Source: Pseudotamlana agarivorans (GTDB lineage Bacteria > Bacteroidota > Bacteroidia > Flavobacteriales > Flavobacteriaceae). Taken from it: 54,585 bases of DNA. Below the pieces are notes generated by a model, which saw nothing but the letters and a program-made list of their open reading frames with translations, was not told the origin of the DNA and searched no databases. The translations under genes and the position numbers were made by a program. Positions 26,477 through 54,585 of the stretch are shown here, one piece after another (position 1 is the first letter of the stretch; every line of letters starts with the position of its first letter). The stretch is from contig NZ_LXEI01000021.1 in assembly GCF_001642835.1 (NCBI RefSeq), forward strand, positions 1 to 54,585. The letters are read 5' to 3'.

Positions 26477-26568
26477 GGGCGTTACCCCGATGAAAAATCG
26501 GGGTCGCGCTTTACGTTATATCTTTTTTTCCTAAGGTCAAAAAAGGATGCCACTTCAATCGCTAACGC
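26477..26568. repeat. Intergenic palindromic repeat, copy A
   Basis: Bounded by GGGCGTTA and GCTAACGC (outer inverted ends GCGTTA/TAACGC). Inside is a perfect 8-bp hairpin (ACCCCGAT/ATCGGGGT, 26484-26504), then TATATCTT, a second T-run/A-run stem, and AAAAGGATGCC. The same order of parts with different stem sequences recurs at 52603-52713. From memory, elements of this wording are scattered through many flavobacterial genomes. Confidence 0.7.
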
Positions 26569-26588
26569 AGTACCACGTGTATTTCGTC

Positions 26589-32986: not shown

Positions 32987-33060
32987 GGCCGCGTGGCGCA
33001 ACTGAATAGCGCACTTGATTACGGCTCAAGAGGTTCCAGGTTTGAATCCTGGCGCGGTCA
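32987..33060 (+). tRNA. tRNA-Arg (anticodon ACG)
   Basis: A 74-nt cloverleaf folds fully: acceptor GGCCGCG with CGCGGTC (one G-U) and discriminator A; D stem GCGC/GCGC; anticodon stem CTTGA/TCAAG with loop TTACGGC giving ACG; T stem CCAGG/CCTGG with loop TTTGAAT. CCA is not encoded. Its 3' end is followed 216 bases later by an integrase, so it is a candidate integration site. Confidence 0.96.
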
Positions 33061-33275: not shown

Positions 33276-34562
33276 ATGACAATTATGAGTGCAAAATCCA
33301 CGTTTTCAATTTTGTTTTGGATTTACAACAAAGATGAGGTAAATAATCAAGGGATTGTTTATGCCAGAATTACCGTAGACGGTAAACGTTCTAATATTAG
33401 CCTGAAACGAAAGGTTGATATTTTAAGATGGGATAAAAAATTACAAAGACTAAATGGAACTACAGAAGAGGTAAAATCTTTTAACCAGTTTTTGAGCAGT
33501 ATTTATACCCAAATATTTCAAATTTATCAGGACTTAAGATTAAAAGGAGAATTAATTACTACAGAACTTATTAAAGCTCATTATTTAGGTGAAACTGATG
33601 AACAGAAAACACTTCGAGGTCTATTAAATTATCATAATGCCAAAATTGAGGTTACTCTGAGCAAGGGTACGATTAAAAATTTCCATGTAACGGAGAAATA
33701 TATTGGATATTATTTAAGAGATATTCATAAGACTTCAGATGTCTATTTGAAACAGTTAAATTATAGGTTCCTTATGGAATTTGAACAATATTTACATAAT
33801 TTCTGGCCTAAAGGACATCCTAAATCTATGTCTCATAACACCGTTATGAAACATATTCAAAGGTTTAGAAAGATTGCAACATTGGGATATCATATGGAAT
33901 GGATGAGTAAGGATCCATTTATTAGGTGGAAACCCAAATGGGAGAGACGTGAACGAGAATTTTTGTCCCCAGATGAATTGGCTAGACTAGAAAGTAAGAA
34001 GCTTTATTTAGAACGTTTGGATAGAGTTCGTGACTTATTTGTCTTTAGTTGCTACACAGGAATTAGTTATGTGGATGTTATGCAACTGAATTCAAAGAGT
34101 ATTGGTAAGGGTGTAGATAATGAGGATTGGATACTAATTAAAAGACAGAAAACAGATATCCCTGTTAAAGTGCCGTTGTTAGATAAGGCTCTTGAGATTA
34201 TTAAAAAGTACAGAGGACATCCAATAATACAGGTGTCTGGAACACTTCTCCCCGTCATCACAAATGAGAAGTTAAATTTGTATCTCAAGGAGGTCGCTGA
34301 GCTTTGTGAAATTGATAAAAATTTGACATTCCACATGGCAAGGCATACGTTTGCAACTACCGTGACTTTAAGTAATGGTGTTCCAATAGAGACTGTTTCG
34401 AAACTACTGGGGCATAACAAAATTTCAACAACACAGATTTATTCAAGAGTAGTGGAAACTAAAATTAGTCAAGATATGGATGAATTGAAGAATGTTTTGA
34501 ACATTAAGGCTAACCAAAAAGCTCATAAAAATAGTCGAGAATTCGGTATGCGAATAGTTTAA
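33276..34562 (+). CDS. Tyrosine recombinase/integrase (Bacteroidetes type)
   Basis: 428 aa. N-terminal arm-binding domain (~1-110), SAM-like core-binding domain (~115-215), catalytic domain from ~225. The catalytic set shows Lys in 'RQKTDIPVKVPL', 'HMARHTFA' (H-x-x-R), 'LGHNKISTTQIYSRV' (H and nucleophile Tyr). The first arginine is replaced: 'TGISYVDVMQL' has Ser, as in the IntDOT group of Bacteroides conjugative transposons. It probably integrated the downstream accessory DNA, with tRNA-Arg as one candidate target. Confidence 0.92.
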   Translation: MTIMSAKSTFSILFWIYNKDEVNNQGIVYARITVDGKRSNISLKRKVDILRWDKKLQRLNGTTEEVKSFNQFLSSIYTQIFQIYQDLRLKGELITTELIKAHYLGETDEQKTLRGLLNYHNAKIEVTLSKGTIKNFHVTEKYIGYYLRDIHKTSDVYLKQLNYRFLMEFEQYLHNFWPKGHPKSMSHNTVMKHIQRFRKIATLGYHMEWMSKDPFIRWKPKWERREREFLSPDELARLESKKLYLERLDRVRDLFVFSCYTGISYVDVMQLNSKSIGKGVDNEDWILIKRQKTDIPVKVPLLDKALEIIKKYRGHPIIQVSGTLLPVITNEKLNLYLKEVAELCEIDKNLTFHMARHTFATTVTLSNGVPIETVSKLLGHNKISTTQIYSRVVETKISQDMDELKNVLNIKANQKAHKNSREFGMRIV

Positions 34563-35228: not shown

Positions 35229-35960
35229 ATGTGTTTTCATACATCGACCATTACAAAAACAAAAAAGCTAGAACAGCATTTTAAAGTGAGATTAAGTAGC
35301 GAAGACATTCGCACCATTTTCGACAAACCACAATATCACTTAAACGGATTTTCACATCCTAACATGCTCGTAATTCCGCAGCAAAAGAGTGAAGTTTTAG
35401 CACCAGGAATTTGGGGCATTGTGCCAGATCATAAAACCCCCGAACACATTTTGTCCTACTACAAAGAAGCGGTGAAATATGGCGGCGGACTCAATGCGCG
35501 CTCTGAAAAGTTGTTTGATCATTTCATATACAAAAAAGCGATACACGAACAGCGGTGTATCATTCCTGTATCAGGTTTTTACGAACCGCACGAACATCAA
35601 AAAAAGAAATACCCGTTTTTTATTCAAAATAAAGAGCAGAAACCCTTGGCTCTAGCAGGTATTTATTCTGTAATAGGAAGTTATATTACGTTTTCTATTA
35701 TTACTAAAAACGCTTCGCCATTTTTCGCTAAAGTACATAATGTTAAAAAACGACAGCCTTTAATTTTAGATGCAGAGCATGCAAAATCTTGGCTAGCTCC
35801 AAATCTTACCACAACACAAATTACCGATATCACAAACTTCTTTTATCCAGAAAGTCATTTACAAACGCACACGGTTAGTAAAGATCTTTTTTCTCCAAAG
35901 ACGGATAGTAACATAGCGCGTATTTTAGATCCCGTAGAATATGATGGTGTAAAAATTTAA
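35229..35960 (+). CDS. SOS response-associated peptidase (SRAP/YedK/HMCES)
   Basis: 243 aa. The start gives Met-Cys2, the residue that (after Met removal) crosslinks to abasic sites in single-stranded DNA. 'NARSEKLFDHFIYKKAIHEQRCIIPVSGFYEPHEH' contains the conserved Asn and Glu, and 'FAKVHNVKKRQPLIL' the family's His segment (normally H-x-R-M-P). It shields abasic sites during replication. It is the first gene of a damage-tolerance cassette with DinB and DnaE. Confidence 0.93.
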   Translation: MCFHTSTITKTKKLEQHFKVRLSSEDIRTIFDKPQYHLNGFSHPNMLVIPQQKSEVLAPGIWGIVPDHKTPEHILSYYKEAVKYGGGLNARSEKLFDHFIYKKAIHEQRCIIPVSGFYEPHEHQKKKYPFFIQNKEQKPLALAGIYSVIGSYITFSIITKNASPFFAKVHNVKKRQPLILDAEHAKSWLAPNLTTTQITDITNFFYPESHLQTHTVSKDLFSPKTDSNIARILDPVEYDGVKI

Positions 35961-36197
35961 AGCGGTTAATTTAGGCATATCTACATTGTGTTCTTCGGTG
36001 AAGTCGTTCCGCAAAAAAATAATATTCATCAGCACTTTAAAATAAATCTATACCGTGATTAAAACGTGATGGTAGGTAACGAGGGTCCTTCCTCATAACA
36101 AATCGTTTATCTCAATATGAAACGTTTTGGATGTTAAAAAACTGCATTACTACAAATGTTAGCAATAAAAGATTGTAAATGTAGCTAATTTTGCAGT

Positions 36198-37412
36198 ATG
36201 AATAAAAATATACTCCATATGGATCTCGACACTTTTTTTGTGTCCTGCGAACGCCTTATAGATAGCCGTTTACAAAAGCGCCCTATTCTTGTTGGTGGTA
36301 CAGGCGATCGTGGTGTGGTGTCTGCCTGTAGTTACGAGACCAGAAAATTTGGAGTGCATTCGGGCATGTCCATGAAAGTCGCTAGACGCCTTTGTCCCGA
36401 AGCGGTAGTGATTCGTGGCAATGCTTCGGTATATTCTAAATACTCACATCAGGTAACCGATATTATTAAAGAAAAAGTACCTGTATTTGAAAAGGCTAGC
36501 ATCGATGAGTTTTATGCCGATTTAACCGGTATGGACCATTTTTTTGGTTCCTATAAATACGCATCAGAATTACGAACCACCATTATTAAGGAAACAGGTT
36601 TACCCATTTCATTCGGACTATCAGCAAATAAAATAGTATCTAAAGTGGCTACTGGCGAAGCCAAACCCAATAACAAATTACGTATTGACCAAGGTTTTGA
36701 AAAGGCCTTTTTAGCACCGCTATCCATTAAAAAGATTCCGTCTGTAGGTAATAAAACGTATCAGATCTTGCGCAACCTAGGTATCGATAAAATTAGTGTT
36801 ATTCAGCAAATGCCTGTTGAAATGCTCACCAGTGTGTTAGGTGTTAACGGACGCACCATTTGGAAACGCGCTTTGGGGATTGATAATCCGCCACTCATTC
36901 CGTTTCACGAACGCAAATCCATTTCTATGGAACGCACTTTTGGGAAAGACACGATTGATATGCATAAGCTCCGAACCACCATTTTTGCTATGGCAGAAAG
37001 TTTGACGTATCAACTCCGAAAGGGTAATAAATTAGCGGCCTGTGTGAGCGTTAAAATTCGTTATTCCGATTTCAATACCTATTCCAAACAGATACAAATC
37101 CCGTATTCCAGTGCCGACCATGTGATTATCCCTAGAGTATTGGAGCTATTCGAAAAACTCTACCAACGCCGCTTGTTAATCCGTTTGGTAGGGGTAAAGC
37201 TGAGTAACCTGATAACCGGAAACTACCAAATTAATTTGTTCGACGATACCGAAGAGATGCTTAGTCTTTACAATGCCATGGATAAAATTAAAAATCGTTT
37301 TGGTGAACACAGCATCCAAAAAGCATCAGCCTTAGGCGCAAAAACTATTGGAGGCACTCAGAATCCGTTTAATGGCGAACCGCCAATTGTTTTGGCGCAT
37401 CGTACGCAGTAA
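36198..37412 (+). CDS. dinB: Y-family DNA polymerase IV
   Basis: 404 aa. 'HMDLDTFFVSCERL' (first catalytic Asp), 'YSKYSHQV', and 'KASIDEFYADLTG' (Asp-Glu pair) define an active Y-family polymerase; a helix-hairpin-helix (KKIPSVGNKTYQILRNLGI) and little-finger domain follow. It copies past damaged bases. The -7-like TAATTTTG at 36186-36193 is very close to the ATG. Direct words AAATGTTAGC/AAATGTAGC (36154 and 36177) precede it and may bind a regulator. Confidence 0.95.
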   Translation: MNKNILHMDLDTFFVSCERLIDSRLQKRPILVGGTGDRGVVSACSYETRKFGVHSGMSMKVARRLCPEAVVIRGNASVYSKYSHQVTDIIKEKVPVFEKASIDEFYADLTGMDHFFGSYKYASELRTTIIKETGLPISFGLSANKIVSKVATGEAKPNNKLRIDQGFEKAFLAPLSIKKIPSVGNKTYQILRNLGIDKISVIQQMPVEMLTSVLGVNGRTIWKRALGIDNPPLIPFHERKSISMERTFGKDTIDMHKLRTTIFAMAESLTYQLRKGNKLAACVSVKIRYSDFNTYSKQIQIPYSSADHVIIPRVLELFEKLYQRRLLIRLVGVKLSNLITGNYQINLFDDTEEMLSLYNAMDKIKNRFGEHSIQKASALGAKTIGGTQNPFNGEPPIVLAHRTQ

Positions 37413-37468
37413 ATCAGTGATATTTTTCGCCACCCTTGAATTAAAAATTCAAAATAAACCCAACAGCA

Positions 37469-40423
37469 ATGTACCTCAATTGCCACACATACTATTCGCT
37501 TCGCTTCGGAACCTTTTCTGAAATAGAACTTTTAGAGCTTGCCCAAATGCATGGTGTGCCATCTTTGGTATTAACCGATATCAATAATACTTCAGCTTGT
37601 TTGAATTTCATCAGAAAAGCTTCAGATTATAATATCAAACCCATTGTTGGTATCGATTTTAGAAATGGTGCCACCCAGCAGTTTGTGGGGATTGCCAAAA
37701 ATAATTCGGGGTTTCAGGAATTGAATTTGGTATTATCAAGCTTCAGTCATAACAAACAAGTCATTCCAAACGAAGCCCCAGAGTTAAAGAACGCTTATGT
37801 TATTTACCCTTTTGAAGCCGTTTTAGAACAGGATAAAACCGATTTTAAAGCCTATGAGTTTATAGGTGTTTCGGTAGCAGAACTTCGGAAACTCCCGTTT
37901 TCTAAATACGTTCAGTATACCCATAAATTAGTCATTCAGCAGCAAGTAACTGTTCGCAATAAACGTGATTTTAATGCGCATCGTTTGCTCAGGGCTATCG
38001 ATAATAATACCCTGTTAAGCAAGCTTCAGAAAATTGAAGAATGTCATCCAGACGATAGCATGTTGCCGCTTTCCGAATTAGAACAAGCATTTGAAATGTT
38101 TCCTTTCATTATCGAAAATACCAAACAACTTCTGGAGCAATGCCACATCCATTTTACTTTTGGAGCAAATCGTATTTCCCAAAATCAGCAAACCTATTTA
38201 GAGTCAAATGCTGCCGATTACGAATATCTAGAAAAACTCTGTTACGAGAAGCTTTCCAAACGCTACAGCCAACCTAGCACCAAAGTGAAATCCCGATTAC
38301 AAACCGAACTTCAAACCATAAAGGCCATGGATTTTGTATCGTATTTTCTTATTAATTACGACATCATCAGCTATGCTAAATCCCAAGGTTATATTCATGT
38401 AGGGCGGGGGAGCGGCGCCAATAGTATTGTGGCTTATATTATTGGCATAACTGATGTAGATCCTATCGAACTCGATTTGTACTTCGAACGTTTTATCAAT
38501 CCCTATCGGGCATCGCCACCAGATTTTGATATCGATTTTTCGTGGAAAGATCGCGAAGATATTACCCAGTATATTTTCAAACGTTTCAAGAATGTGGCTT
38601 TATTAGCCACTTACAACACTTTTAAATATCGGGCTGTCGTACGTGAATTGGGTAAAGTATTCGGTTTGCCCAAAGAGGAAATCGATAAACTGGCAGCCGA
38701 TAAACACCAAACACAAGCTTTGGACGAAATGTCTAGTTTGGTGATAAAATACAGCAAACTCATTCAAGGATTTCCCAATCATTTAAGTGTACATTCCTGT
38801 GGTATCCTCATTTTACAAGAGCCCATTCATTATTATTCGGCAACCGATTTACCACCGAAAGGCTTCCCAACGGTACAATTTGATATGATTATTGCTGAAG
38901 ATACTGGCATCTTTAAATTCGATATTCTCGGACAACGTGGCCTTGCGAAAATCAAGGAAGCCATTGAAATTATTCAGTACAATCGCCCTGAAGCACCGCC
39001 TATTGATATTACCCAAGTAGAACAATTTAAAAAAGACCCCAATATCAATGAGCTCTTAAAAAGCGGACGAGCCATTGGAGCGTATTATGTCGAATCGCCT
39101 GCCATGCGCGGCCTCATGCAAAAACTGCAAACGCAGGATTATATCGGACTTGTAGCAGCGAGTTCCATTATACGTCCTGGGGTTTCCAGTTCGGGGATGA
39201 AACAGGAATACATTAAACGCCAGCGTTATCCCGAAACCCGAAAACAAGCCAATCCGAAACTGTTGGAAATTATGCCAGAAACCTATGGTATTATGGTCTA
39301 TCAGGAAGATGTGCTCAAAGTTGCTAACCAGTTTGCCGACTTAACTTTGGGTGAAGCCGATGTGCTCCGCCGTGGTATGAGTGGTAAGTTTCGCTCCCGA
39401 GCCGAGTTTGCCGCTGTAGAAGAAAAATTTATCAATAATTGCAAAGCTAAAGGCTATCCAGATGATCTCACCATCACGGTTTGGAACCAGATTAAAAGCT
39501 TTGCGGGCTATGCCTTTGCCAAAGGGCATTCGGCATCCTATGCAGTGGAGAGTTACCAAAGCCTGTATTTAAAATGTTACTATCCTTTAGAGTTTATGGT
39601 AGCGGTACTCAATAACGGTGGCGGGTTTTACAGTGCCGAGCATTATATTCATGAAGCTAAAATGTGGGGCGCTGAGGTACAAGCACCTTGCATTAATACT
39701 AGCGAACATTACAACATCATTAAAGGAAAAACCATTTACTTGGGTTTAGGCTACCTGAAAAGTTTGGAAACCTTGGAGGTAAAACGCCTGCTTACCGAAC
39801 GGAATTTTAATGGGCCATTCACATCTTTAGCCGATGTGATAGATCGTGTTACTATTAGTATCGAACAACTCACTATTCTTATCCGCATCGATGCCTTAAG
39901 GTTTACAGGACAACCCAAAACCGAACTACTTTGGCAGGCCATTTTTAAGTGTAATGCCAACAAATCAAAAACAGCACAGGGCAAATTGTTTAAACCGCAA
40001 CAGAAGACGTTTGTGTTGCCTAGCTTACAGACTTCGGCTATTGAGGATGCTTACGACCAAATGGAACTGCTGGGTTTTCCTCTGTGTTCATATTTCAACC
40101 TCATTAATGAAAACTTGCAACCTCATATTAAGGCTAAAAACCTAAAACACCACATCAATAAACGTGTATTGTTATATGGGCTGTTGGTTAATACCCGATT
40201 TCATAAAACAGCACAGGGCAAACGCATCCGTTTTTGCACCTTTACCGATCAGGAAGGGCATTATTTTGATACGGTACATTTCACCAAAGTTGTAAACCAA
40301 TATCCAATCCATGGTATTGGCGTGTATGCTTGTTACGGTACGGTAACTGCCGATTTTGATTTTTGTAGTCTAGATATTATTTGGAGTAGGAAACTGGAAG
40401 TGATTACAGATCCTAGGGGGTAG
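37469..40423 (+). CDS. DNA polymerase III alpha subunit, DnaE2-like
   Basis: 984 aa, shorter than a replicative DnaE. The C-family polymerase core has 'HVGRGSGANSIVAYI' and 'PPDFDIDFSW' (catalytic aspartates), and 'GYAFAKGHSASYAVESYQSLYLK' in the fingers. The N-terminal PHP domain is eroded: the usual HxH is 'NCHTYYS' and 'LTDINNTS' lacks the TDH histidine, so it is probably not a working proofreader. The C-terminus has an OB domain but no tau-binding extension that I can see. It follows dinB by 56 bases and probably cooperates in translesion synthesis. Confidence 0.9.
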   Translation: MYLNCHTYYSLRFGTFSEIELLELAQMHGVPSLVLTDINNTSACLNFIRKASDYNIKPIVGIDFRNGATQQFVGIAKNNSGFQELNLVLSSFSHNKQVIPNEAPELKNAYVIYPFEAVLEQDKTDFKAYEFIGVSVAELRKLPFSKYVQYTHKLVIQQQVTVRNKRDFNAHRLLRAIDNNTLLSKLQKIEECHPDDSMLPLSELEQAFEMFPFIIENTKQLLEQCHIHFTFGANRISQNQQTYLESNAADYEYLEKLCYEKLSKRYSQPSTKVKSRLQTELQTIKAMDFVSYFLINYDIISYAKSQGYIHVGRGSGANSIVAYIIGITDVDPIELDLYFERFINPYRASPPDFDIDFSWKDREDITQYIFKRFKNVALLATYNTFKYRAVVRELGKVFGLPKEEIDKLAADKHQTQALDEMSSLVIKYSKLIQGFPNHLSVHSCGILILQEPIHYYSATDLPPKGFPTVQFDMIIAEDTGIFKFDILGQRGLAKIKEAIEIIQYNRPEAPPIDITQVEQFKKDPNINELLKSGRAIGAYYVESPAMRGLMQKLQTQDYIGLVAASSIIRPGVSSSGMKQEYIKRQRYPETRKQANPKLLEIMPETYGIMVYQEDVLKVANQFADLTLGEADVLRRGMSGKFRSRAEFAAVEEKFINNCKAKGYPDDLTITVWNQIKSFAGYAFAKGHSASYAVESYQSLYLKCYYPLEFMVAVLNNGGGFYSAEHYIHEAKMWGAEVQAPCINTSEHYNIIKGKTIYLGLGYLKSLETLEVKRLLTERNFNGPFTSLADVIDRVTISIEQLTILIRIDALRFTGQPKTELLWQAIFKCNANKSKTAQGKLFKPQQKTFVLPSLQTSAIEDAYDQMELLGFPLCSYFNLINENLQPHIKAKNLKHHINKRVLLYGLLVNTRFHKTAQGKRIRFCTFTDQEGHYFDTVHFTKVVNQYPIHGIGVYACYGTVTADFDFCSLDIIWSRKLEVITDPRG

Positions 40424-41219: not shown

Positions 41220-44200
41220 TTACGCACTCCAGTCACTAAATTGACCTTCTGCTTGTTGCATAATTTCCTGAAGGATTTCATTTAGTTTAGTAATAGATAC
41301 CTTGCCACGAAGTTCTTTTTTTACGGCCAACCGTATTGCGGCTTTTGCATTTTCTTTTTTTGTCCAGTCTAATTGTAAATTAGCTTTTACAGCTTTTACT
41401 ACGGCATGGACGATATCTTGAATGGGACCTTCCTCTTTAATTATTTCCTTTTTAGCAGCAAGAATATCATAAAAAGCTAATTCTTCTTCGCTTAATCCTA
41501 ACTCGTCTGTACGTTTAGCTTCATCCTGCAAAGATTTAGCACGGTCTATAAGCTCTACAATTGTTGCGTAGCTATCAAGAGCATTATTATGATATTTATC
41601 TATAACCTTTTCTAACTCTTCTTTTAGAGAAGTGTATTTTTTTATGTTTTTGTGAAGGCGAAGTTTAATTTCGTCTTTTAAAATATTCTTTATCAACTCA
41701 ATCTTCAAGGCATTGCCATCCTTTTGTTTTTTTGCACCCAGTAAAAACGTTTCATCCAGAATGGAAATATCTGGTTTTTCAATACCCGACATAGCAAATA
41801 CATCTACGATGTCTTCGGAGTCTATACTTTGACTAATGAGTTCTTTAACTTTTTCCTTTTGTTCGCTTCTAGTTGATTTTACAGACTTGGCATTTCGAAT
41901 AGCCTTAGATACATGCTGTATAAAAAGCACATCGACTATTGCCTCTTGAATGGCTGGCTGACTTTTAACGATAGACAATAAGCCAGAAAGCTTTTTTTCT
42001 CCAAGCATAAAGTCGTTAGCTTCTTCATCGTATTTTATGATGTGGTTTACTGCTCGTTTTACTAGCAGAACTTTATCAGCATCTCTGAGTCTTTTCCATT
42101 CGTAGTATTCAATATTCTCAGGTATAAAGCTTTTACAAATTTCTATCTGATTAAAGAACAGTTCCAAAGCCTGCTCCATGTCCAGAGTAGGTTTGCCTTT
42201 TCCACCACCTTTCGTGTATTTATCTGTAGCAGATTTTAAATTATCACCAATACCAATATAATCGACAATAACACCGTTTCGTTTGTCTTTAAACACCCTG
42301 TTGGTTCGGGTAATGGCCTGCATTAAATTGTGACCTTTCATTATTTTATCTACATACATGGTATGTACACAAGGGGCATCAAAACCAGTTAACCACATAT
42401 CGCGAACAATAACAATTTTTAAAGGGTCGTTGTTTTTTCTAAAACGCTTTTTCAGCGCTTCGGTAGCATCTTTGGTTCTAATATGTTTATTCCACTCAAC
42501 GGGGTCTTTAGAAATGTTTCCTGTCATAACAACAGCAATTTCAGGGCAATCTTCGAGTGACGTTAATGCATTATACATTTTTACACAATTTCTGCGACTC
42601 ATACATACAATCATCGCTTTACCATCCAGAGAAGAAATTCTATTGGTAAAGTGATTCAGGATGTCATTAGCAATTTTAGTTACCCGATCTTCACTACCCG
42701 CAGCATCTTCAACAGCAGCCCATTTTAAATTGCTGTTATCTTCAATGTCCTGAGTGATTTCGTCTACCTCATTATCAATGCTTTCATTCCAGAGATGTAA
42801 TTTGGCTAATCGTGGTTCGTAGAAAATATTAACTGTGGCATTATCGTCTACTGCCTGTTTAATATCGTAAGTATGTATCACCTCCCCAAAAACTTCTTCG
42901 GTATCTGCATCTTTACTGTCAACAGGTGTTCCTGTGAATCCAATAAACGAAGCCTTAGGTAAGGCTTTACGAAGGTTAGATGCAAAGCCATCCAGAAGCC
43001 CATATTGTGTGCGATGCGCTTCATCGGCCATGACAATAATGTTTTCTCGTTCGGATAATACAGGGTGTTCCAGTTCACCTAAAACCTCATCGGAACCTGA
43101 TTTCAAGCGAAACTTTTCTATGGTTGTAAAAATGACACCTCCTGCGCCTGCACTTAAAAGCTTTCGTAAATCTTCAGTCGAATCGGCATGTTGCACATCT
43201 CCAACCAAATCTTTTGCCAGTACAAAGTTTTCATATAACTGCATGTCCAGATCACTACGGTCTACCTGAACAACAATAGTTGGGTTTTTCAATTCTGGGA
43301 GACTTCTTAAAACTCCCGTATAAATGGCCATGGAAATGCTTTTACCTGAACCCTGGGTATGCCAGATTACTCCAATACGTCCGTCACCAAATGGACGAAC
43401 CGATTTTTTAGCGGCTTCTACGGCAAAATTAACGCCGAAAAACTGATGATACTTGGCACCCTTTTTAATTAGGGAACCGTTATGGTCTTCGTGAAATATG
43501 AAGTTCTTGATATAGTTTAGTAAGCGCTCTTTAGGAAATAAGCCAAAGAGCAAGGTGTGCATCTGGAAATCATCTTCCGTTACCGTGTCTTTACCGTTAA
43601 TGCTTTTCCAGGGCGCAAACCATTCCATGTCTGAAGAAAACATGCCGTGCTGCGCTTCGTTACCGTCGCTGATAATGGTTAATGCATTGTATTCAAACAA
43701 TACAGGAATATCCTTTTTATAATGCTGTATCTGATTGTGAGCTTCTTTTATGTTGGTGTTTTCGTCGTACCAGTTCTTCAGTTCGAATACGATTAAAGGC
43801 AGACCATTAATGTAAATGATGATATCTGGCCGACGCTTATTTTTACCTGTTATACTAAACTGATTAACTACCAGAAAGGAATTGTTGTCTTTGCCTGACA
43901 CTGTAAAATCAATAGGGTAGATGTGCACCGCTTTCTCGTTACCCTGAGCATCTTCGTAATTAAAATCGATGCCCTTGGTACATTTTAAATGAAAGTTCCG
44001 GTTACGGTGTTCCAAATCGGCACCCACATTATTTGTGAATTCGGCAACAGCCAATAGCTGAACCTCATTCGGAAGCTGCGGGTATTGTTTTTTTATAAAA
44101 GCCAATAACTGATCTTTTAATACAACTTCTTTATTATTCTGGGGCAGTTCGGTTCCCAGGGTATAATTGTATTTGAGATCTTTTAACCAGTCTATGGTGG

Positions 44201-44228
44201 CGTTTTCTATATTGGCTTCTGTGGTCAT
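41220..44228 (-). CDS. hsdR: Type I restriction enzyme R subunit
   Basis: 1002 aa. PD-(D/E)xK nuclease near residue 145-150 ('GLPLIVFELKNW'), Walker A 'HTQGSGKS' near 290, DEAH-box 'MADEAHRTQYG' near 400, 'FIGFTGTPV' and 'GFDAPCVHTMYVDK' as later SF2 translocase motifs, and a helical C-terminal region for complex assembly. It moves DNA and cuts away from the recognition site with HsdM/HsdS. It follows hsdS by 10 bases. Confidence 0.95.
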   Translation of the reverse strand: MTTEANIENATIDWLKDLKYNYTLGTELPQNNKEVVLKDQLLAFIKKQYPQLPNEVQLLAVAEFTNNVGADLEHRNRNFHLKCTKGIDFNYEDAQGNEKAVHIYPIDFTVSGKDNNSFLVVNQFSITGKNKRRPDIIIYINGLPLIVFELKNWYDENTNIKEAHNQIQHYKKDIPVLFEYNALTIISDGNEAQHGMFSSDMEWFAPWKSINGKDTVTEDDFQMHTLLFGLFPKERLLNYIKNFIFHEDHNGSLIKKGAKYHQFFGVNFAVEAAKKSVRPFGDGRIGVIWHTQGSGKSISMAIYTGVLRSLPELKNPTIVVQVDRSDLDMQLYENFVLAKDLVGDVQHADSTEDLRKLLSAGAGGVIFTTIEKFRLKSGSDEVLGELEHPVLSERENIIVMADEAHRTQYGLLDGFASNLRKALPKASFIGFTGTPVDSKDADTEEVFGEVIHTYDIKQAVDDNATVNIFYEPRLAKLHLWNESIDNEVDEITQDIEDNSNLKWAAVEDAAGSEDRVTKIANDILNHFTNRISSLDGKAMIVCMSRRNCVKMYNALTSLEDCPEIAVVMTGNISKDPVEWNKHIRTKDATEALKKRFRKNNDPLKIVIVRDMWLTGFDAPCVHTMYVDKIMKGHNLMQAITRTNRVFKDKRNGVIVDYIGIGDNLKSATDKYTKGGGKGKPTLDMEQALELFFNQIEICKSFIPENIEYYEWKRLRDADKVLLVKRAVNHIIKYDEEANDFMLGEKKLSGLLSIVKSQPAIQEAIVDVLFIQHVSKAIRNAKSVKSTRSEQKEKVKELISQSIDSEDIVDVFAMSGIEKPDISILDETFLLGAKKQKDGNALKIELIKNILKDEIKLRLHKNIKKYTSLKEELEKVIDKYHNNALDSYATIVELIDRAKSLQDEAKRTDELGLSEEELAFYDILAAKKEIIKEEGPIQDIVHAVVKAVKANLQLDWTKKENAKAAIRLAVKKELRGKVSITKLNEILQEIMQQAEGQFSDWSA

Positions 44229-44238
44229 AGGCTTTTAC

Positions 44239-45381
44239 TTAGAGAGCATTTTCGACTTGTTGTCTAAATGCTTTTAATTGAATATCTCCACTTATTAATT
44301 TTGGTAATAAGGTGTCTCGTAATTGAATAAGGGTTTGGTTTTCCAATTCATTTGATATTACCATCATTGAGTAAGAATGAAATTTATCCAACAACTCGTC
44401 AATAAGTGAAACATTTTTTGGAAATGGTATGCCAATTGAAAGAAGGTTCTGCTTATTTAGTTTTGGTTGAACCGCACCAGTTAGAAATTGGTTCATATCT
44501 AATTGGGCAATATGAGATATTATCAGTTTGTTGATACCTCTCATCTTTCCCTGTACAATATGAGCGTGATTATTAACCCAAAATTTTCCAAATGCATTAA
44601 AAGCAATTGGTGTTTTTCTTGAACGCAGATTTTCACCATCTTCAGAAATAATCACGTATTCACCCTCAAATAAGTAATCATCAATAAAATCAATTATTCC
44701 CGAAGCTCCATAGTATGGAAACTTACCTTTCCTAGTACTACGCTCCCTTGAACTTAATGGAATTCTTTTTGAATTTAAAATATTAGCTAAATCATCTAAC
44801 CGTTTAACCTCCCAACCTTTAGGAATCTGTCCAAGTTCGCTTTCTACAAACTCACCATTCTGAAATGGGCCAAAATCTACAAACCAATGTTTGTATAAGG
44901 CCATGGCCATGTCTTCTAAGGTTTTGTTAATAGCTAGGTTGTTCTCTATTTTGTCGTCTATAGCAGAGAGGATGGATGCTATGGCTTTTTGTTCAGAGAG
45001 GGGTGGGATTGTTACGTCTATTTTATGAACATCATTCCTATTTAAAGTAGGAACACTAGTACCAGAATTGAATTCCTCAAATTTTAATGTTTTTAAAAAA
45101 TAATAGATGAATTTTGGTTCATTTCCATGAAAATCCTTTACCCAAAGTGAGGTGTTAAGAGGCCAAAAGTCGTTTTTTTCATAATAAACTTGACCAAGAG
45201 TTCCTGAACGACCAGTTGTAACTCCTGGTCCTTTTACTTTGAATTCATTATGCCATGAACTAAATCCTGAAGCCGCAATGACCGGATATGACCCCATTTT
45301 TCTTTTTGAATTAGGTAGGTCATAGCCTCTTTGAAGCGTTACAACTTTACCAAGTTTGTATGTTTTCCAGTTGTGTGGCAT
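44239..45381 (-). CDS. hsdS: Type I restriction specificity subunit S
   Basis: 380 aa with two target-recognition domains (~1-130 and ~190-330) joined by conserved coiled-coil segments: 'PPLSEQKAIASILSAIDDKIENNLAINKTLEDMA' in the centre and 'NQTLIQLRDTLLPKLISGDIQL' at the end. The bipartite target cannot be read. No second partial hsdS or inversion repeat is seen, so no shuffling locus here. Confidence 0.93.
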   Translation of the reverse strand: MPHNWKTYKLGKVVTLQRGYDLPNSKRKMGSYPVIAASGFSSWHNEFKVKGPGVTTGRSGTLGQVYYEKNDFWPLNTSLWVKDFHGNEPKFIYYFLKTLKFEEFNSGTSVPTLNRNDVHKIDVTIPPLSEQKAIASILSAIDDKIENNLAINKTLEDMAMALYKHWFVDFGPFQNGEFVESELGQIPKGWEVKRLDDLANILNSKRIPLSSRERSTRKGKFPYYGASGIIDFIDDYLFEGEYVIISEDGENLRSRKTPIAFNAFGKFWVNNHAHIVQGKMRGINKLIISHIAQLDMNQFLTGAVQPKLNKQNLLSIGIPFPKNVSLIDELLDKFHSYSMMVISNELENQTLIQLRDTLLPKLISGDIQLKAFRQQVENAL

Positions 45382-45385
45382 TTAG

Positions 45386-47380
45386 TTAATTATAAAATTG
45401 AATAATATCTTGTATCCAAAGAGGACTTGATTCCGGATCTAACTTTAAATATTCTTGACAAATTTCATCTTTTTTTGAATCGAAAAACTCATGTATAGAT
45501 TCAGTATCCCGATTGAAATTTCTATTAAGACTAGCTAGCTTCAATATTGAATTGGTACCACGGATAAAACTAAAGATTGATTCTTCTTCATAAGCATAAT
45601 TAGAAAATATTTGTTGCACTGTTTCAGAAGAATTATTTGAAGAAATTACGGTTGGGTTATTATTTATTACAATTTCTAACGCAGAATAAAATCTTCTTGG
45701 GTTTAAAACTTCTTCAAATTCTGTTTCTGTGTTCAAAGTATCTCCAATTCTAACTAGTTTAATACTATTTGTATCATGATCGAGTTGTATCCTTCTAAAG
45801 CAGAGTTTTTTATTTTTTGTTTCCGAATTTACTTCTAGTTTAATTCCTCTTCGGTCTGTATCTATTAAACAATATATCTTTCCTTGTAAATCTTTAGCTT
45901 CTTCATTTGCTTGAATTGGTAAATAAAGATATTCGTATATTTTTTTTACTATAGTACAACCACCGACAGGTAATATTTTAACATCTAGATTGTCAGGTAA
46001 ATAATGACTTAAATAATCTTTGTCTGTTTTTCCTTCTACGATTAACCAATTTGTAGATTTACTTCTTACTGCACTAATTATAGAAGATGTTAAATCGTAA
46101 AAGCTTTTTAGATTTACATCATTTGGATGAGTCCCTCTTTCTTCAAAATAATTTGCCAATTCAAAAACTTCAATGTTCACATTTGTAGTAGGAGATTTTT
46201 GAACATGATAAAGACGCCCTTTATTTAATACCGGTAATCCTCCATACCAATGAGTAGTGACAAATAACTGGGTGTTAAATTTGTTAGCTATTTCTTCTAT
46301 CCGTTCATATTGTTCATAGCACATTGAAATATGTAAAGAGGTTTCAGGTTCATCTATGCCGATAATCACCTCATGGTCCGTCTCGTGTTCTTGAGAAATA
46401 AAAGCATAGGTAATATCAATTAATGCCTTTTTACGTTCTCCAGCACTTAAGTCTTGTATGTCTTTTTCATCCTTTTGAAGTCTCCTTTTTGAGAAATAAA
46501 CATCTATAATTACCTCTGTAAAGTCTTTAACATTTACTTTTTTGGTTCTTTGTTCTCTATTAAAATGATAACTTGAGTCAATGGTTTGAACTGCTGCCTC
46601 AACTTCTTCTACGTATTCCTGAATTTTTTCGTTGATATAGTTAATGATAGCGACATTTCTAGTAGTTCTTCTTTGCGCACCTAAACCTGGTAATTCCAGA
46701 GTTTTATTAAGAGTACTTTTAATATCATCCTTAAGTTCTTTATTGGTTAAAGACTGAATGCCATTTTCTTCAATTCTCAAGAAATCGCTAATCGACATAT
46801 CAACGGGGATATAAATAAAACGATAGTAATCTTTTATTTGTCCACATAAGGAATTGTGTTTTGATATAAAAGCACTTTCATCTATGGCTAATTCAGTTGT
46901 TATATGATTTTGAATTTTAGATTTAATCGTTCCTTGAACCGTTTCTTTATTATTAGGATTACTACTAAAAACAAATAAAAAATATTCATCTGATGAAAAA
47001 TTGTTTTTCAAATTTTCTCTAAGAGAAATAAATTTTTCAAGCTCTGGGGTGCTTGCATAGAGTGAGGTAAAGTCTAAATTCCAAATTGCTAAACTCAAAC
47101 TGTTTGCAAATTCAAATTTATCACCAGTAAACTCTGTAAATAGTTTTGATTTTTTAATCAAAAAAACAGGAGCAACACTAGAGTCTCTAATCCTTGCCCC
47201 CGAATGTATAATGAAATCTCTATCATTAAAAAATGAATCTAGCCCTTCTAAAATAGAACTTTTACCTGAGCCGTTATTGCCTATAAATAAGTTTAGTTTG
47301 TTGTCTTCTTTTTCTAAAAAGGGTATAAAATTAATACCATTATAAATTTTAAAATTCCTAAGAAATAATCCTGCTACCAT
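45386..47380 (-). CDS. OLD-like AAA/TOPRIM protein inserted in the restriction operon
   Basis: 664 aa. ABC-type ATPase: Walker A 'IGNNGSGKSS' near residue 35, signature-like 'LSAGERKK' near 311, Walker B 'IGIDEPETSLH' near 340, 'VTTHWYG' switch His after it. From ~445 a TOPRIM-like fold: 'IVEGKTDKDYL' (Glu), 'LPVGGC', 'LIDTDRRG' (D-x-D). This combination defines OLD-family nucleases. It starts 1 base after hsdM and ends 4 bases before hsdS, a restriction-linked (Rlo-type) position known from Campylobacter loci. It may act as a second defence layer. Confidence 0.82.
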   Translation of the reverse strand: MVAGLFLRNFKIYNGINFIPFLEKEDNKLNLFIGNNGSGKSSILEGLDSFFNDRDFIIHSGARIRDSSVAPVFLIKKSKLFTEFTGDKFEFANSLSLAIWNLDFTSLYASTPELEKFISLRENLKNNFSSDEYFLFVFSSNPNNKETVQGTIKSKIQNHITTELAIDESAFISKHNSLCGQIKDYYRFIYIPVDMSISDFLRIEENGIQSLTNKELKDDIKSTLNKTLELPGLGAQRRTTRNVAIINYINEKIQEYVEEVEAAVQTIDSSYHFNREQRTKKVNVKDFTEVIIDVYFSKRRLQKDEKDIQDLSAGERKKALIDITYAFISQEHETDHEVIIGIDEPETSLHISMCYEQYERIEEIANKFNTQLFVTTHWYGGLPVLNKGRLYHVQKSPTTNVNIEVFELANYFEERGTHPNDVNLKSFYDLTSSIISAVRSKSTNWLIVEGKTDKDYLSHYLPDNLDVKILPVGGCTIVKKIYEYLYLPIQANEEAKDLQGKIYCLIDTDRRGIKLEVNSETKNKKLCFRRIQLDHDTNSIKLVRIGDTLNTETEFEEVLNPRRFYSALEIVINNNPTVISSNNSSETVQQIFSNYAYEEESIFSFIRGTNSILKLASLNRNFNRDTESIHEFFDSKKDEICQEYLKLDPESSPLWIQDIIQFYN

Positions 47381-47381
47381 T

Positions 47382-48992
47382 TTAAAATTTTTTAAAATTC
47401 TCTAAAATTTGTACTTGTAACTTATTGCCATTTTCAAACTGCCCTTGCAACTGAGTTTTTAAGGCTTCCATTTTTTCTTCAAAGGGGATACCGTTGTCTT
47501 CAATGGCTTCACTACCAACGTAAATACCAGGAGTCAGTTTGTAATCTTGTTTTTTAACTTCATCCAAAGTACCTGCATAGCAGTAGCCATCTATGTTTTC
47601 ATAGCTAACAGATTGCGCTGTCTCCTTAGAAGGAACATTGCGCCAAGCATGATAGGTTTCGGCAACTTTGTTAACATCTTCATCGGTTAATACGCGCAGC
47701 TTACGGCTTTCCATGGTGCCCATCTTAGAAGTATCTATAAACAGAATTTCATTGCTACGCTCTCTGTGTATGCCATCTTTACCATCTCTGTTTTTACTTA
47801 AAATAAAAATACAGGCTGGAATACCAGTTGTTAAGAACAACTTGTCTGGGAGGCGCACTATACAATCTACCATGCTGTTGTCTACCATATATTGGCGTAC
47901 ATTTTTTTCGCCTTTATTGTTCGATGTCATGGCACCATTTGCCATAACCACACTTGCTGTACCTTTGTCGCTTAAATGGCTCCAAAACGTTTGCATCCAC
48001 ATATAATTGGCATTACCATCGGTAGTGAACTCTTCTCTAGGACCAAATAATCGTGGGTCATTTTCAGGTAAATCTTCGGGATGCCACTGGCTTACATTAA
48101 ACGGCGGATTCACTATAATGAAATCAGCTTTTAGGTCCGGGAACTTATCTTGCAGTAAAGAGTCTCCCAAACGGACATCGAAAGATAAATCACGTAAAGC
48201 AAGATTCATTTTACATAAACGAAGTGTACCATCATAGCGTTCCTGTCCGTAGATTGAAATATTCTTTTTGTCTCCATTATGAGCCTTCAGGAATTTTAAG
48301 GACTGAACAAACATTCCTCCCGAACCACAGGCGGCATCAAATATTTTGCCTTCGTAAGGCTCTATCATTTCGACTAACAAGCGTACTATACTCCCTGGAG
48401 TAAAGAATTGCCCCGCACCAGAACCCTCGGCGATGGCAAACTTACCAATGTAGTATTCGTACACCCGACCTAAAATATCACTGTCTGGGTTTTCCTTTTC
48501 TGAAAGTTTGGGATTAGCCAATAAGTTTATTAAACCAGCAACCTGCTTCGCTGTTAGCTGGCTTTTAACAAATATTCTTGGGAGAATCCCTTTTAAGTCT
48601 GGCCTGTATGTTGCTAGAGTATCATCTAATAATTGGAAGGCATCGTCAACCAGAACTTTAATATTGTCCTGCTCAGCATTATCCTGTAGAAATTGCCAGG
48701 TTGCTTTTTTAGGAATGATGTAGGTGTTCTTAGAAAGGTATTCGTCTGAGTCTTCTAAAACATAGCGTTGTTCGTCAGTATCTTGAGTGTAGTAATCCGA
48801 TTTAGGATCATTAAGCATCAAAGTTAACGTGTCACGTCTTAATTCATAGCGCTCAGAGATATGCTTTAGGAATATAAGTGGTAAAATGAAATCTTTGTAC
48901 TGGTTTTCAGCAACGGCTCCGCGTAGTTCATTTGCAGCCTTCCATAATTCCTGTTCGAAATTTATATCGGCTTTCGTTGTTTTTTTAGTCAT
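47382..48992 (-). CDS. hsdM: Type I DNA methyltransferase M subunit
   Basis: 536 aa from the ATG at 48992; an in-frame TTG at 49019 would add nine residues (MGRNRHYLK) and is not preferred. N-terminal HsdM_N helical domain ('FEQELWKAANELRGAVAENQYKDFILPL'), SAM motif 'FDAACGSGGMF' near 220, and the adenine N6 motif 'NPPF' near 295. First gene of the operon. Confidence 0.95.
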   Translation of the reverse strand: MTKKTTKADINFEQELWKAANELRGAVAENQYKDFILPLIFLKHISERYELRRDTLTLMLNDPKSDYYTQDTDEQRYVLEDSDEYLSKNTYIIPKKATWQFLQDNAEQDNIKVLVDDAFQLLDDTLATYRPDLKGILPRIFVKSQLTAKQVAGLINLLANPKLSEKENPDSDILGRVYEYYIGKFAIAEGSGAGQFFTPGSIVRLLVEMIEPYEGKIFDAACGSGGMFVQSLKFLKAHNGDKKNISIYGQERYDGTLRLCKMNLALRDLSFDVRLGDSLLQDKFPDLKADFIIVNPPFNVSQWHPEDLPENDPRLFGPREEFTTDGNANYMWMQTFWSHLSDKGTASVVMANGAMTSNNKGEKNVRQYMVDNSMVDCIVRLPDKLFLTTGIPACIFILSKNRDGKDGIHRERSNEILFIDTSKMGTMESRKLRVLTDEDVNKVAETYHAWRNVPSKETAQSVSYENIDGYCYAGTLDEVKKQDYKLTPGIYVGSEAIEDNGIPFEEKMEALKTQLQGQFENGNKLQVQILENFKKF

Positions 48993-49033
48993 TTTGAGGT
49001 AATGTCTGTTTCTTCCCAATAAGGGGGTATTTT

Positions 49034-52602: not shown

Positions 52603-52713
52603 GGGCATGACACCACTTACATTTTTAAATGTAAAATGTAAGTGGGTCGGGTCATCCACTATATCTTATGTGATTTTTATGAATCACAAAAGGATGCCGC
52701 TGCTACCCCTTAT
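52603..52713. repeat. Intergenic palindromic repeat, copy B
   Basis: Begins GGGCATGACA, then a perfect 13-bp hairpin (52612-52624 CCACTTACATTTT with 52632-52644 AAAATGTAAGTGG), then GTCGGG, TATATCTTA, a perfect 7-bp hairpin TGTGATT/AATCACA, AAAAGGATGCC, and ends CTTATGC. The order of parts equals copy A at 26477. The 118-codon ORF across it (52568-52924) is considered spurious. The rest of 52306-52974 shows no gene; a TTTCGACAAGCTCC repeat word lies at 52757. Confidence 0.7.
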
Positions 52714-52974
52714 GCAAGGTATTATTAATAGTTCATTTCAGGACATTTCCCTGCATTTCGACAAGCTCCATTTCGGAAAAAGCACTTCAAGATACCCTCT
52801 TGGACACAGACTTAAAACCAAAAAAGCGATAATATTCCTAAGTTTTTTTGATTTTAAACCAGAGTCCGCTGCCACTACATCATCCACTTTAAAACTCACA
52901 AAAGAAGAAGATATTATATTTTGATTTTATCTAATAAGAAAGCCAGAAATACTATTTTCTTAACGGTCATTTCG

Positions 52975-53311
52975 GCAAAGTCTTCTCGGGACTTTGCACG
53001 CTCCGTCCTAAAAATACCATCTCTGTCAAGCATTTTAAGGGGTTTATAATGTTTGAGGCCTTTATTGGTTTTTGGTACAGCAAAAACCAGGCATAGCCAA
53101 AGGCACTTCTAATATGAATTCCCATAACACTGCAGGTTTAACTTCCTGTACACCTACGCCGTTATGGTTTTCATAAGAAGGCCTAAGGCTATAGTGGAAC
53201 TTGTAAAGACCAAGTAAATTTTATCAAAACTTAAGGTTTCTACTTCCTTGAAAATCCAAGGATTTTACCACGTCGCAGACACTCCTGAACTTTTGATAAA
53301 AGTCTTTACAA
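52975..53311. other. Densely base-paired noncoding element upstream of ssb
   Basis: Consecutive stems: GCAAAGTC/GACTTTGC (52975-52997); CCTAAAAAT/ATTTTAAGG with one mismatch (53007-53040); GGTTTTTG/CAAAAACC (53067-53088); an interrupted 27-bp hairpin 53093-53192 built of ATAGCC/GGCTAT, GGC/GCC, CTTCT/AGAAG, TATGAA/TTCATA and CCATAAC/GTTATGG; and an outer stem TTGTAAAGAC plus TTTTATCAAAA (53201-53229) with TTTTGATAAAAGTCTTTACAA (53291-53311, right arm contiguous), enclosing CCTTG/CAAGG. No ORF uses it. It may be a structured RNA or a single-strand DNA element of the mobile unit. Confidence 0.55.
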
Positions 53312-53358
53312 AACCCACCTCAAACATGGTACTCTTTTAGAGAGAAGTATACAAAGCA

Positions 53359-53398
53359 CCCCTTAAAATTCAAGTTTAATTAAAGCCAAAATAAGGGG
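53359..53398 (+). promoter_or_regulatory. Hairpin in the ssb leader
   Basis: CCCCTTA (53359-53365) pairs with TAAGGGG (53392-53398); the loop contains the palindrome TTTAATTAAA. It ends 29 bases before the ssb ATG. Confidence 0.45.
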
Positions 53399-53427
53399 CA
53401 TTTATTAACCTTTTAAATTTTTTAATC

Positions 53428-53760
53428 ATGAGTACAATTAAAAACAAAGTACAGTTAATTGGTAACGTAGGGCAAGAGCCAACGATGACCATTTTAGAAG
53501 ACGGAAAAAAGTTAGCCCGTATTTCATTGGCTACGAATGAGTATTACAACAATGCCCAAGGCGAAAAACAAAACAATACCAGTTGGCACAATTTAGTAGC
53601 CTGGGGTAAAAAGGCGGATATCGTAGAAAAGTACGTGACTAAAGGCAAAGAAATTGCCATCGAAGGAAAACTAACCTCAAGAAGTTATGAGGATAAAGGC
53701 GGCGTTAAACGCTATATGACCGAAATTACAATTAGTGAAATTTTGCTACTTAGTAAATAG
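53428..53760 (+). CDS. ssb: Single-stranded DNA-binding protein, tail-less
   Basis: 110 aa. The OB fold is complete: 'NKVQLIGNVGQEP', 'ARISLATNEYY', 'TSWHNLVAWGKKADIVEKYVTKGKEIAIEGKLTSRSYEDK'. It ends at LLLSK directly after the last strand, without the Gly/Pro-rich linker and acidic DDxPF tip of chromosomal SSBs, which recruits repair proteins. Short SSBs of this kind are typical of mobile elements. A strong terminator follows. Confidence 0.93.
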   Translation: MSTIKNKVQLIGNVGQEPTMTILEDGKKLARISLATNEYYNNAQGEKQNNTSWHNLVAWGKKADIVEKYVTKGKEIAIEGKLTSRSYEDKGGVKRYMTEITISEILLLSK

Positions 53761-53835: not shown

Positions 53836-54279
53836 ATGAAAAGCAAAGTTAATGAAATACAGATATCTTATAAGGAGCAATTAAAAACTTCGGTGGTCAT
53901 AACCAGTTCAAAAATGGCAAATGAGGTGATTTACGAACATTGGGATAAGAATACGATTGCCGTTTATGAGTCTTTTAAAGTCGTGTTACTGAATAATGCC
54001 AATAAGGTTAAAGGTATTTATCAACTGTCTACAGGTGGTATGACTGGAACTTTAGTTGATATTCGATTGTTGTTCGCCATTGCATTAAAAACACTTGCAA
54101 CCGGCTTGATTTTATGTCATAATCACCCGAGTTCAAAGCTTAAACCCAGTGAAATGGATAAACAAATTACTGAGAAGATTATAAAAGCTTCAAAGTTATT
54201 AGATATTAAGGTGCTGGATCACCTCATTATTACGCCAGATGGTGACTTTTTTAGTTTCGCGGACAATGGACTAATTTAA
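53836..54279 (+). CDS. JAB/RadC-family protein
   Basis: 147 aa from the ATG at 53836 (a TTG three codons upstream is not preferred). 'LATGLILCHNHPSSKLKPSEMDKQIT' supplies the JAMM metal site (H-x-H and downstream Asp) and 'VLDHLIITPDGDFFSFAD' closes the fold. The N-terminal helix-hairpin-helix of full RadC is missing, as in copies carried by Bacteroidetes mobile elements. Function unsettled. Confidence 0.9.
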   Translation: MKSKVNEIQISYKEQLKTSVVITSSKMANEVIYEHWDKNTIAVYESFKVVLLNNANKVKGIYQLSTGGMTGTLVDIRLLFAIALKTLATGLILCHNHPSSKLKPSEMDKQITEKIIKASKLLDIKVLDHLIITPDGDFFSFADNGLI

Positions 54280-54289
54280 ATTTAAAGTG

Positions 54290-54487
54290 ATGATTTATTT
54301 GAATTATTCCAATTTAGATGCTGAAACCCAAGAACGATTGCTGAAAACCTCAAAAGTAGATGTTGAGCGCCAATTTGGAAACTCCTTAAAAGCTTATGCA
54401 CTAAAACACCATTTGAATTATCAAACTGTTTTAGAAGAAGAAGCCATCCGACACCTTAATAGTTATACCTATGTGTTTAATATTTGA
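54290..54487 (+). CDS. Small conserved-looking protein next to RadC
   Basis: 65 aa from the ATG at 54290 (GTG 54287 directly before it). Charged and helical (NLDAETQERLLKTSKVDVERQ), ending NSYTYVFNI. I recall similar small proteins beside JAB genes in flavobacterial mobile elements, but no function. It begins 10 bases after the JAB stop and ends before a terminator. Confidence 0.7.
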   Translation: MIYLNYSNLDAETQERLLKTSKVDVERQFGNSLKAYALKHHLNYQTVLEEEAIRHLNSYTYVFNI

Positions 54488-54541: not shown

Positions 54542-54585
54542 TTCAATGGTTGAAGGTGGTTTTAGGAAAATTGATGTTCTAAATT

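Follow-up and report, generated by a model that had tools for sequence, protein, structure and literature searches.

A conserved folded element on the strand opposite ssb in Flavobacteriaceae mobilizable elements, a candidate single-stranded DNA promoter

The window analyzed here is a 54,585-nucleotide stretch of Pseudotamlana agarivorans DNA. Strong evidence indicates that its bottom strand bears a conserved folded element before a leading ssb gene. The folded structure is real, spans about 480 noncoding bases, and is larger than was first described from the letters alone (hereafter the sequence-only reading). The best explanation, which we regard as probable, is a single-stranded DNA (ssDNA) promoter similar to Frpo, located in the leading region of an integrative mobilizable element of Flavobacteriaceae. 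The structure, its covariation and preferred strand, its linkage to ssb and mobilization (mob) genes, the order of these genes, and a conserved oriT-like repeat are established. The features of the window are as follows, the top strand (+) being that of ssb.

52946-53426, bottom strand (best-folding, complementary to ssb mRNA): type 1 folded element, 41 aligned copies, 152 pairs
52947-53022, bottom strand: 5' domain including the hairpin at 52975-52997 (helices 15 and 16), changes on both sides in 20 of 27 pairs
53032-53043, bottom strand: left arm of the 12-bp closing stem (helix 1), almost invariant
53043-53048, bottom strand: TATAAA (helix 2), seen in 29 of 41 copies and proposed as the non-template -10 box
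53049-53057, bottom strand: left arm of a 9-bp helix, half of the proposed spacer, paired with 53319-53327 (helix 4)
53058-53093, bottom strand: side hairpin GGTTTTTGG...CAAAAACC (helices 13 and 14)
53094-53192, bottom strand: 100-nt side hairpin (helices 9-12), changes on both sides in 28 of 35 pairs
53194-53318, bottom strand: main helix (helices 5-8), which holds bottom-strand G.T pairs
53251-53266, bottom strand: apical hairpin AAAATCC/GGATTTT, which covaries
53305-53310, top strand: TTTACA (TTGACA in most copies), proposed -35 box
53358-53369, bottom strand: right arm of the closing stem (helix 1)
53428-53760, top strand: ssb (Pfam SSB, 1.6e-31)
53836-54279, top strand: radC-like gene with an inner ATG start (Pfam RadC in a relative similar to the window copy)
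54290-54487, top strand: small gene of 65-66 aa, conserved in relatives
33276-34562, top strand: presumed tyrosine integrase, named from its translation, adjoining a tRNA gene at 32987-33060

The integrase and the tRNA gene are probably the left end of an island, from which its presumptive extent is taken. The contig ends at 54585, short of the oriT-like repeat and the mob genes. In a related locus (L014), an integrase is also found upstream of the element. Near the integrase of the window are genes that we take, from their translations, to be SRAP-like, Y-family polymerase, and dnaE2-like genes (35229-40423) and a type I restriction-modification set (41220-49019). A Flavo-1 RNA above the gathering score lies at 26498-26571 on the bottom strand. 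A sub-threshold Flavo-1 match (36.9 bits, cut-off 42) at 52641-52720, also on the bottom strand, is just upstream of the element and outside it. The following ~230 bp (52720-52945) are conserved in many relatives, and windows there are folded, on average without bottom-strand bias.

The top strand of 52960-53410 folds at -133.5 kcal/mol, compared to -91.7 +/- 4.9 for 100 dinucleotide shuffles (z -8.5), and none of the 100 shuffles folded as well. This is the excess of folding energy that the sequence-only reading had proposed to look for. The hairpins it described at 52975-52997, 53067-53088, and 53093-53192, and its outer stem (53201-53229 with 53291-53311), all appear in the computed top-strand fold. 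It missed the paired 5' domain and the perfect closing stem (53032-53043/53358-53369), which joins the separate hairpins into one branched domain. The leader hairpin described at 53359-53398 competes with the closing stem, since its left arm doubles as the stem's right arm. A switch between CCTTG/CAAGG and AAAATCC/GGATTTT had also been suggested and is not supported, because CCTTG/CAAGG, which the top-strand fold takes, is broken in some relatives (L004, L005), while AAAATCC/GGATTTT, which the bottom-strand fold takes, has inner pairs that covary (helix 8, changes on both sides in 4 of 4 pairs). A riboswitch-like function was rejected on the same observations. In some copies (e.g., L014, L059, L064, L070, and L074), the apical hairpin has small, partly palindromic inserts. 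Neither strand of the window copy has a coding frame of note, the longest stop-free stretches being 49 codons on the top strand and 56 on the bottom strand. Frames of 62 aa inside the element of L006 and L011 were considered as a coding function and rejected, as they are closed in the window (at most 49 codons on that strand). Within the element, no Rfam family (release 15) was found at the gathering score, a search that the sequence-only reading had also proposed.

Covariation among the copies exceeds that of the controls. From 63 near-full copies, 41 that were less than 95% alike were kept. Their consensus has 152 pairs, with 91.9% of cells paired, and 87 of the pairs have changes on both sides, including 7 of the 9 pairs in helix 4. 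For this structure, which was derived from the same 41 sequences, 509 cells were changed on both sides, whereas shuffled controls had 148 and slid controls 90-177.

The preferred strand is the bottom one. In the window copy, the z-scores with RNA energies are equal on both strands (-8.53 and -8.52), but the energy is lower on the bottom strand, and the strand difference against shuffles has a z of 1.5; with DNA energies the values are -81.6 (z -8.5) for the bottom strand and -74.8 (z -8.3) for the top strand. Among the 41 copies, 40 have the more stable fold on the bottom strand with RNA energies (the exception is L074), and 40 also do so with DNA energies. The strand difference averages 29 kcal, of which base composition accounts for ~17; when each copy was compared with 30 of its dinucleotide shuffles, 39 of the 41 still showed a positive difference (mean z +2.0). 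The mean z over the 41 copies is -6.3 for the bottom strand and -4.5 for the top strand, with the bottom strand more extreme in 34. The consensus fold is -221 on the bottom strand versus -172 on the top strand. Predicted pairs comprise 122 common to both strands, 29 found only on the bottom strand, and 8 found only on the top strand; the bottom-only pairs contain 357 G.T cells, as read on the bottom strand, versus 45 in the top-only pairs, as read on the top strand. The pair 53314/53198 is a bottom-strand G.T in all 41 copies and 53312/53200 in 40 of 41, and on the top strand these two pairs would be conserved C.A mismatches. A point against the bottom strand is that, in the 122 common pairs, top-strand A.C cells (210 against 368 expected) show no excess over other mismatches (318 against 577). 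Overall, selection for pairing acts on the bottom strand, the complement of ssb mRNA.

The element is tied to ssb. A DNA search of 99 genomes gave a match in nine, including the genome of origin; among these matches, those in G016 and G035 are partial, and that in G028 is a 22-base chance stretch. Of 397 sampled genomes of the family, 62 matched at E<=0.001 (57 strong matches at E<1e-13 and five weak ones). Searching the window and 69 fetched loci of 15-20 kb with a profile gave 75 matches, from which three opposite-strand self-matches (<30 bits) were removed. For 65 of the 72 copies kept, the start of an ssb match lies less than 200 nt downstream in the same orientation, although ssb is incomplete in a few (e.g., L063, L079, and L081). 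The linkage to a mobile-element ssb that had been read from the window is confirmed and strong, as is that to mobilizable elements. The remaining seven are copies without ssb nearby (L055, L020, L083, and L080), a copy directly before radC (L070), and second copies or fragments (L084 and L072). Locus L084 has tandem copies at 8809-9223 and 10122-10590 (in the element's direction), of which only the second adjoins ssb. Locus L020 (G016:C20, near 639178-639457) has the 5' part of the element, with an integrase-like fragment nearby.

An exact 20-base pattern scan of named genomes yielded at least 117 stretches; the matches listed (80 titles) come almost entirely from Flavobacteriaceae or Flavobacteriales, besides one Listeria and one Saprospirales record. 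Plasmid and phage collections had no match to one type 1 copy in a distant-mode search, and a 17-base pattern is present in 20 viral-contig stretches. Loose-match literature searches, in which few subscription journals were covered, found no earlier description of the element.

Downstream of the element, the gene order is ssb, a radC or DUF6876 gene, the 65-66 aa gene, a mobA-like gene, a DUF5712 gene, and a gene for a TrwB/TraG-type coupling protein. The mobA-like gene has no Pfam match and is presumably BfmA-like. The DUF5712 gene, with its HxH motif, appears to be relaxase-like. Upstream, ParB genes (25 of 69 loci) and DUF932 genes (24 of 69) are found, all in the direction of ssb. DUF5712 was detected in 109 of the 397 family genomes, comprising 55 of the 57 with a strong element match (it was absent from G016 and the genome of origin) versus 54 of the other 340. 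The assembly from which the window comes has no DUF5712 match and lacks the mob genes. Its contig C13 ends at 54585, and ~3.2 kb that carry the mob genes in a relative probably fall in an assembly gap between C13 and C15, because the start of C15 is 96% identical to the end of that relative's coupling-protein region.

The interval separating the small gene from mobA holds a conserved block, AGCAAGAGGGTAAC, and after it an inverted repeat. With <=3 mismatches allowed, this oriT-like repeat is present, oriented as ssb, in 35 of 39 type 1 loci and in all 15 loci of a second type described below; the four loci without it are L063, L074, L071, and L081. It is mostly ~1.3 kb downstream (range 0.65-2.5 kb). 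Read along the bottom strand, the inverted repeat comes first and the conserved core second. Origins of the RP4 type are cut on the 3' side of the repeat as read on the nicked strand, so a bottom-strand nick is predicted, and from this the leading region would consist of the small gene, radC, ssb, and the element. This is good but indirect evidence, by analogy with RP4, that the bottom strand is transferred and that ssb is leading. The strand indicated by gene order and oriT layout is the same as that indicated by folding. In a scan of 14 loci, consistent bottom-strand bias was located at the element, and no other position, including the stretches before DUF932 and ParB genes, was consistently folded and bottom-biased. 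Single outlier windows occurred elsewhere (e.g., L110 near -3065 and L056 near -4261). In the oriT region, both strands fold alike on average, with single bottom-biased windows in L064 and L088.

A second type of element was found at other DUF5712 loci. Twenty such loci without a nearby type 1 match were chosen by eye, and 450 nt before ssb were folded; two were left out (L160, no ssb match; L148, ssb incomplete). All 18 remaining loci have a bottom-strand z below -3 (mean -8.1), and 15 have a top-strand z below -3 (mean -5.4); 16 are bottom-biased and two are not (mean strand difference +2.7), with L142 and L151 identical and L156 nearly so. Ten ssb coding controls had means of -0.3 for the bottom strand, -0.2 for the top strand, and +0.1 for the difference, with one of the ten itself folded. 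One locus (L145) turned out to be type 1. The other 17 share type 2, one long imperfect hairpin of ~300 nt with no detectable similarity to type 1. Its consensus (15 loci) folds at -155 on the bottom strand versus -112 on the top strand, with 34 bottom-only and 16 top-only pairs. Type 2 sequence is present in 97 of the 397 family genomes (73 at E<1e-13), irrespective of its position relative to ssb. In a relaxase tree of 45 loci (30 type 1, 15 type 2), well-supported branches require at least three changes of type, and the best tree has seven. Outside the family, DUF5712 was found in 24 of 345 genomes of the class, three of which are same-family, and among 20 loci from other families the ssb module was present only in L328 (G771), with type 2.

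Several features of type 1 can be read as parts of a promoter. The right arm carries TTGACA in 34 of 41 copies and TTTACA in the window. The spacing from TTGACA to the helix junction is 17 nt in 36 of 37 copies measured (53311-53327 in the window), and at the junction the left arm of the same strand carries TATAAA in 29 of 41 copies, the box not being located in four. The two boxes lie across the helix junction, and the -10 box is paired elsewhere: it pairs weakly (one G.T pair) with 53351-53354, and template-strand positions 53328-53350 are looped out as a hairpin at the proposed -10 box. The assignment of these boxes was made post hoc, and they are E. coli-like, whereas Bacteroidota promoters are reported as TTTG/TAnnTTTG. 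A Bacteroidota promoter pattern had no power here: it occurs in type 1 copies in 0 of 41 on the top strand and 1 of 41 on the bottom strand, and in type 2 copies in 0 of 15 on either strand, but it is also rare in controls (5 of 294 genes, and 24 of 294 antisense). In type 2, the box layout is absent by eye. Together, we consider the evidence for promoter function moderate.

Since the best fold is on the strand that probably enters the recipient first, it may act as an ssDNA promoter. In the proposed sequence of events, the relaxase would nick at the downstream oriT-like repeat, and the bottom strand would enter the recipient 5' end first, bringing in the small gene and radC, followed by ssb and, after it, the element. 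This strand would fold into a double-strand-like branched structure, to which RNA polymerase would bind and from which it would transcribe rightwards on a single-stranded template. SSB and the products of the following genes would thus be made before second-strand synthesis. The short RNA may also prime second-strand synthesis, and conversion to double strand would end both the fold and its activity. The nick position, the transferred strand, polymerase binding, the two boxes, and the timing are predictions.

An alternative that we consider unlikely is that leftward transcription yields a structured bottom-strand noncoding RNA, antisense to the ssb leader, that regulates ssb or transfer. Conservation of bottom-strand wobble pairs suits RNA as well as DNA, and large bacterial noncoding RNAs are similar in size and branching. 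However, two folds unrelated in sequence, mostly of the same polarity, interchange before the same gene, which suits a function at the level of the strand better than one at the level of RNA sequence. No conserved bottom-strand promoter was seen with the Bacteroidota pattern, itself a weak one (5 of 294 control genes), and the element has no Rfam family.

Another explanation, to which we give a rather low probability, is a single-strand origin or primase loading site (sso- or ssi-like) on the transferred strand, which would start complementary-strand synthesis and would not drive ssb. The strand and place of the element are as expected for such a site, and sso1 of ICEBs1 is a precedent (PMC4595007). 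However, priming does not require a fixed site directly before ssb, which is where 65 of 72 copies lie, and promoter-like boxes are present. Promoter and priming functions may coexist here, as they reportedly do in Frpo, judging by the title of a 1997 paper by Masai and Arai.

A structured 5' leader of ssb mRNA, controlling translation or termination from the top strand, is very improbable. In its favor, the element is directly before ssb, and folding is strong on the top strand too (z -8.5 in the window; mean -4.5, n=41). However, in the 122 pairs common to both strands, top-strand G.U is specially depleted (63 of 223 expected, 28%) relative to A.C (210 of 368) and other mismatches (318 of 577), which are both at 55-57% of expectation. 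The excess of bottom-only over top-only pairs (29 versus 8), the weaker top-strand consensus fold (-172 versus -221), and the bottom-strand preference of the covarying apical helix also argue against it. A cis-regulatory leader RNA was rejected because mRNA-strand pairing with G.U is not conserved, and a leader is probably not the function because the opposite strand is under selection for pairing.

There is hardly any likelihood that the element is part of a transfer origin or relaxosome; it sits in the mobilization module, but the inverted repeat and nick core beside the relaxase operon that mark an oriT are found not in it but in the separate conserved repeat downstream beside mobA (50 of 54 loci of both types), a better candidate, so the folded element itself is probably not the origin. 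Among the roles offered by the sequence-only reading, an ssb control element is thus favored, while a structured leader RNA and the transfer origin itself are probably not correct.

Beyond the Frpo-like promoter proposed for the window, we tentatively raise a broader hypothesis, which is possible but has less than an even chance of being right. Flavobacteriaceae mobilizable elements may have at least two unrelated ssDNA promoters, swapped as modules before ssb. Type 1 would be a branched DNA in which helices stack, with side hairpins interrupting both strands, to form a -35 box, a spacer of 17 bp, and a -10 box that is weakly paired, its strands drawn from far-apart segments of one transferred strand. 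If this is true, expression from incoming single strands also occurs in Bacteroidota integrative elements, and ssDNA promoters arose in unrelated sequences. They could then be found by a signature of strand-resolved folding and covariation instead of by similarity, and type 1 would offer a test bed for RNA polymerase reading branched single-stranded DNA.

Among known systems, GOLLD, ROOL, and similar large noncoding RNAs are hundreds of nucleotides long, highly branched, and covarying, and they are often carried on mobile elements. The element resembles them in size, branching, covariation, and mobile-element setting. It differs in having no Rfam match, in being fixed before ssb on the opposite strand, and in being swapped for an unrelated fold in sibling mobilizable elements. 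The single-strand element sso1 belongs to ICEBs1, an integrative and conjugative element, and is comparable in kind, as are other single-strand origins; it is a replication origin, unlike an element before a leading ssb (PMC4595007).

F and ColIb-P9 are among the plasmids with described ssDNA promoters; for the 300 most prevalent leading-region families, the transferred strand alone is reported to encode the anti-defence and SSB genes, and Frpo-like sequences are reported to precede SSB genes (PMC11541004). Wider searches for ssDNA promoters used similarity to Frpo/ssi or E. coli-type boxes in predicted folds; in the main text of that source, the stem "Bacteroid" is absent (PMC11541004). In plasmid F, Frpo1 and Frpo2 are both reported to be needed for early expression in recipients, and folding of the strand reportedly re-forms -10 and -35 boxes (PMC9849209).

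We took 450 nt before ssbF and before the gene beside DUF932 as Frpo2 and Frpo1, respectively. Their bottom-strand z-scores are -7.9 and -8.3, their top-strand z-scores -5.2 and -4.9, and their strand differences +2.1 and +3.5. Control stretches of F (ssbF coding, ParB coding, and another upstream stretch) have strand differences of 0.4, 0.9, and -0.5, the ParB coding stretch being itself folded (z -4.7), and 250-nt windows adjoining the genes show no bias (-0.3 and -0.7). The type 1 profile has no match at E<=1 in the F stretch holding Frpo1 and Frpo2, and the type 2 profile has one marginal match in F (E 0.008), far from Frpo. Type 1 is a ~480-nt branched domain and type 2 one long hairpin, unlike Frpo, and the flavobacterial host belongs to Bacteroidota, with an integrated mobilizable element that carries a DUF5712 gene. 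ParB and DUF932 leading genes are oriented as ssb both in F (50000-66000, L348) and in many flavobacterial loci, but in the latter the element separates them from oriT, and they are not placed between ssb and oriT. Like Frpo, the element is noncoding and directly before an ssb that is leading if the candidate oriT is correct, and its template strand, which is predicted to be the transferred strand, is stably folded. The element thus appears to work like Frpo while not being a member by sequence, and it shares with the Frpo regions of F a noncoding place in the leading region, directly before ssb in the case of Frpo2, and the same strand-bias signature.
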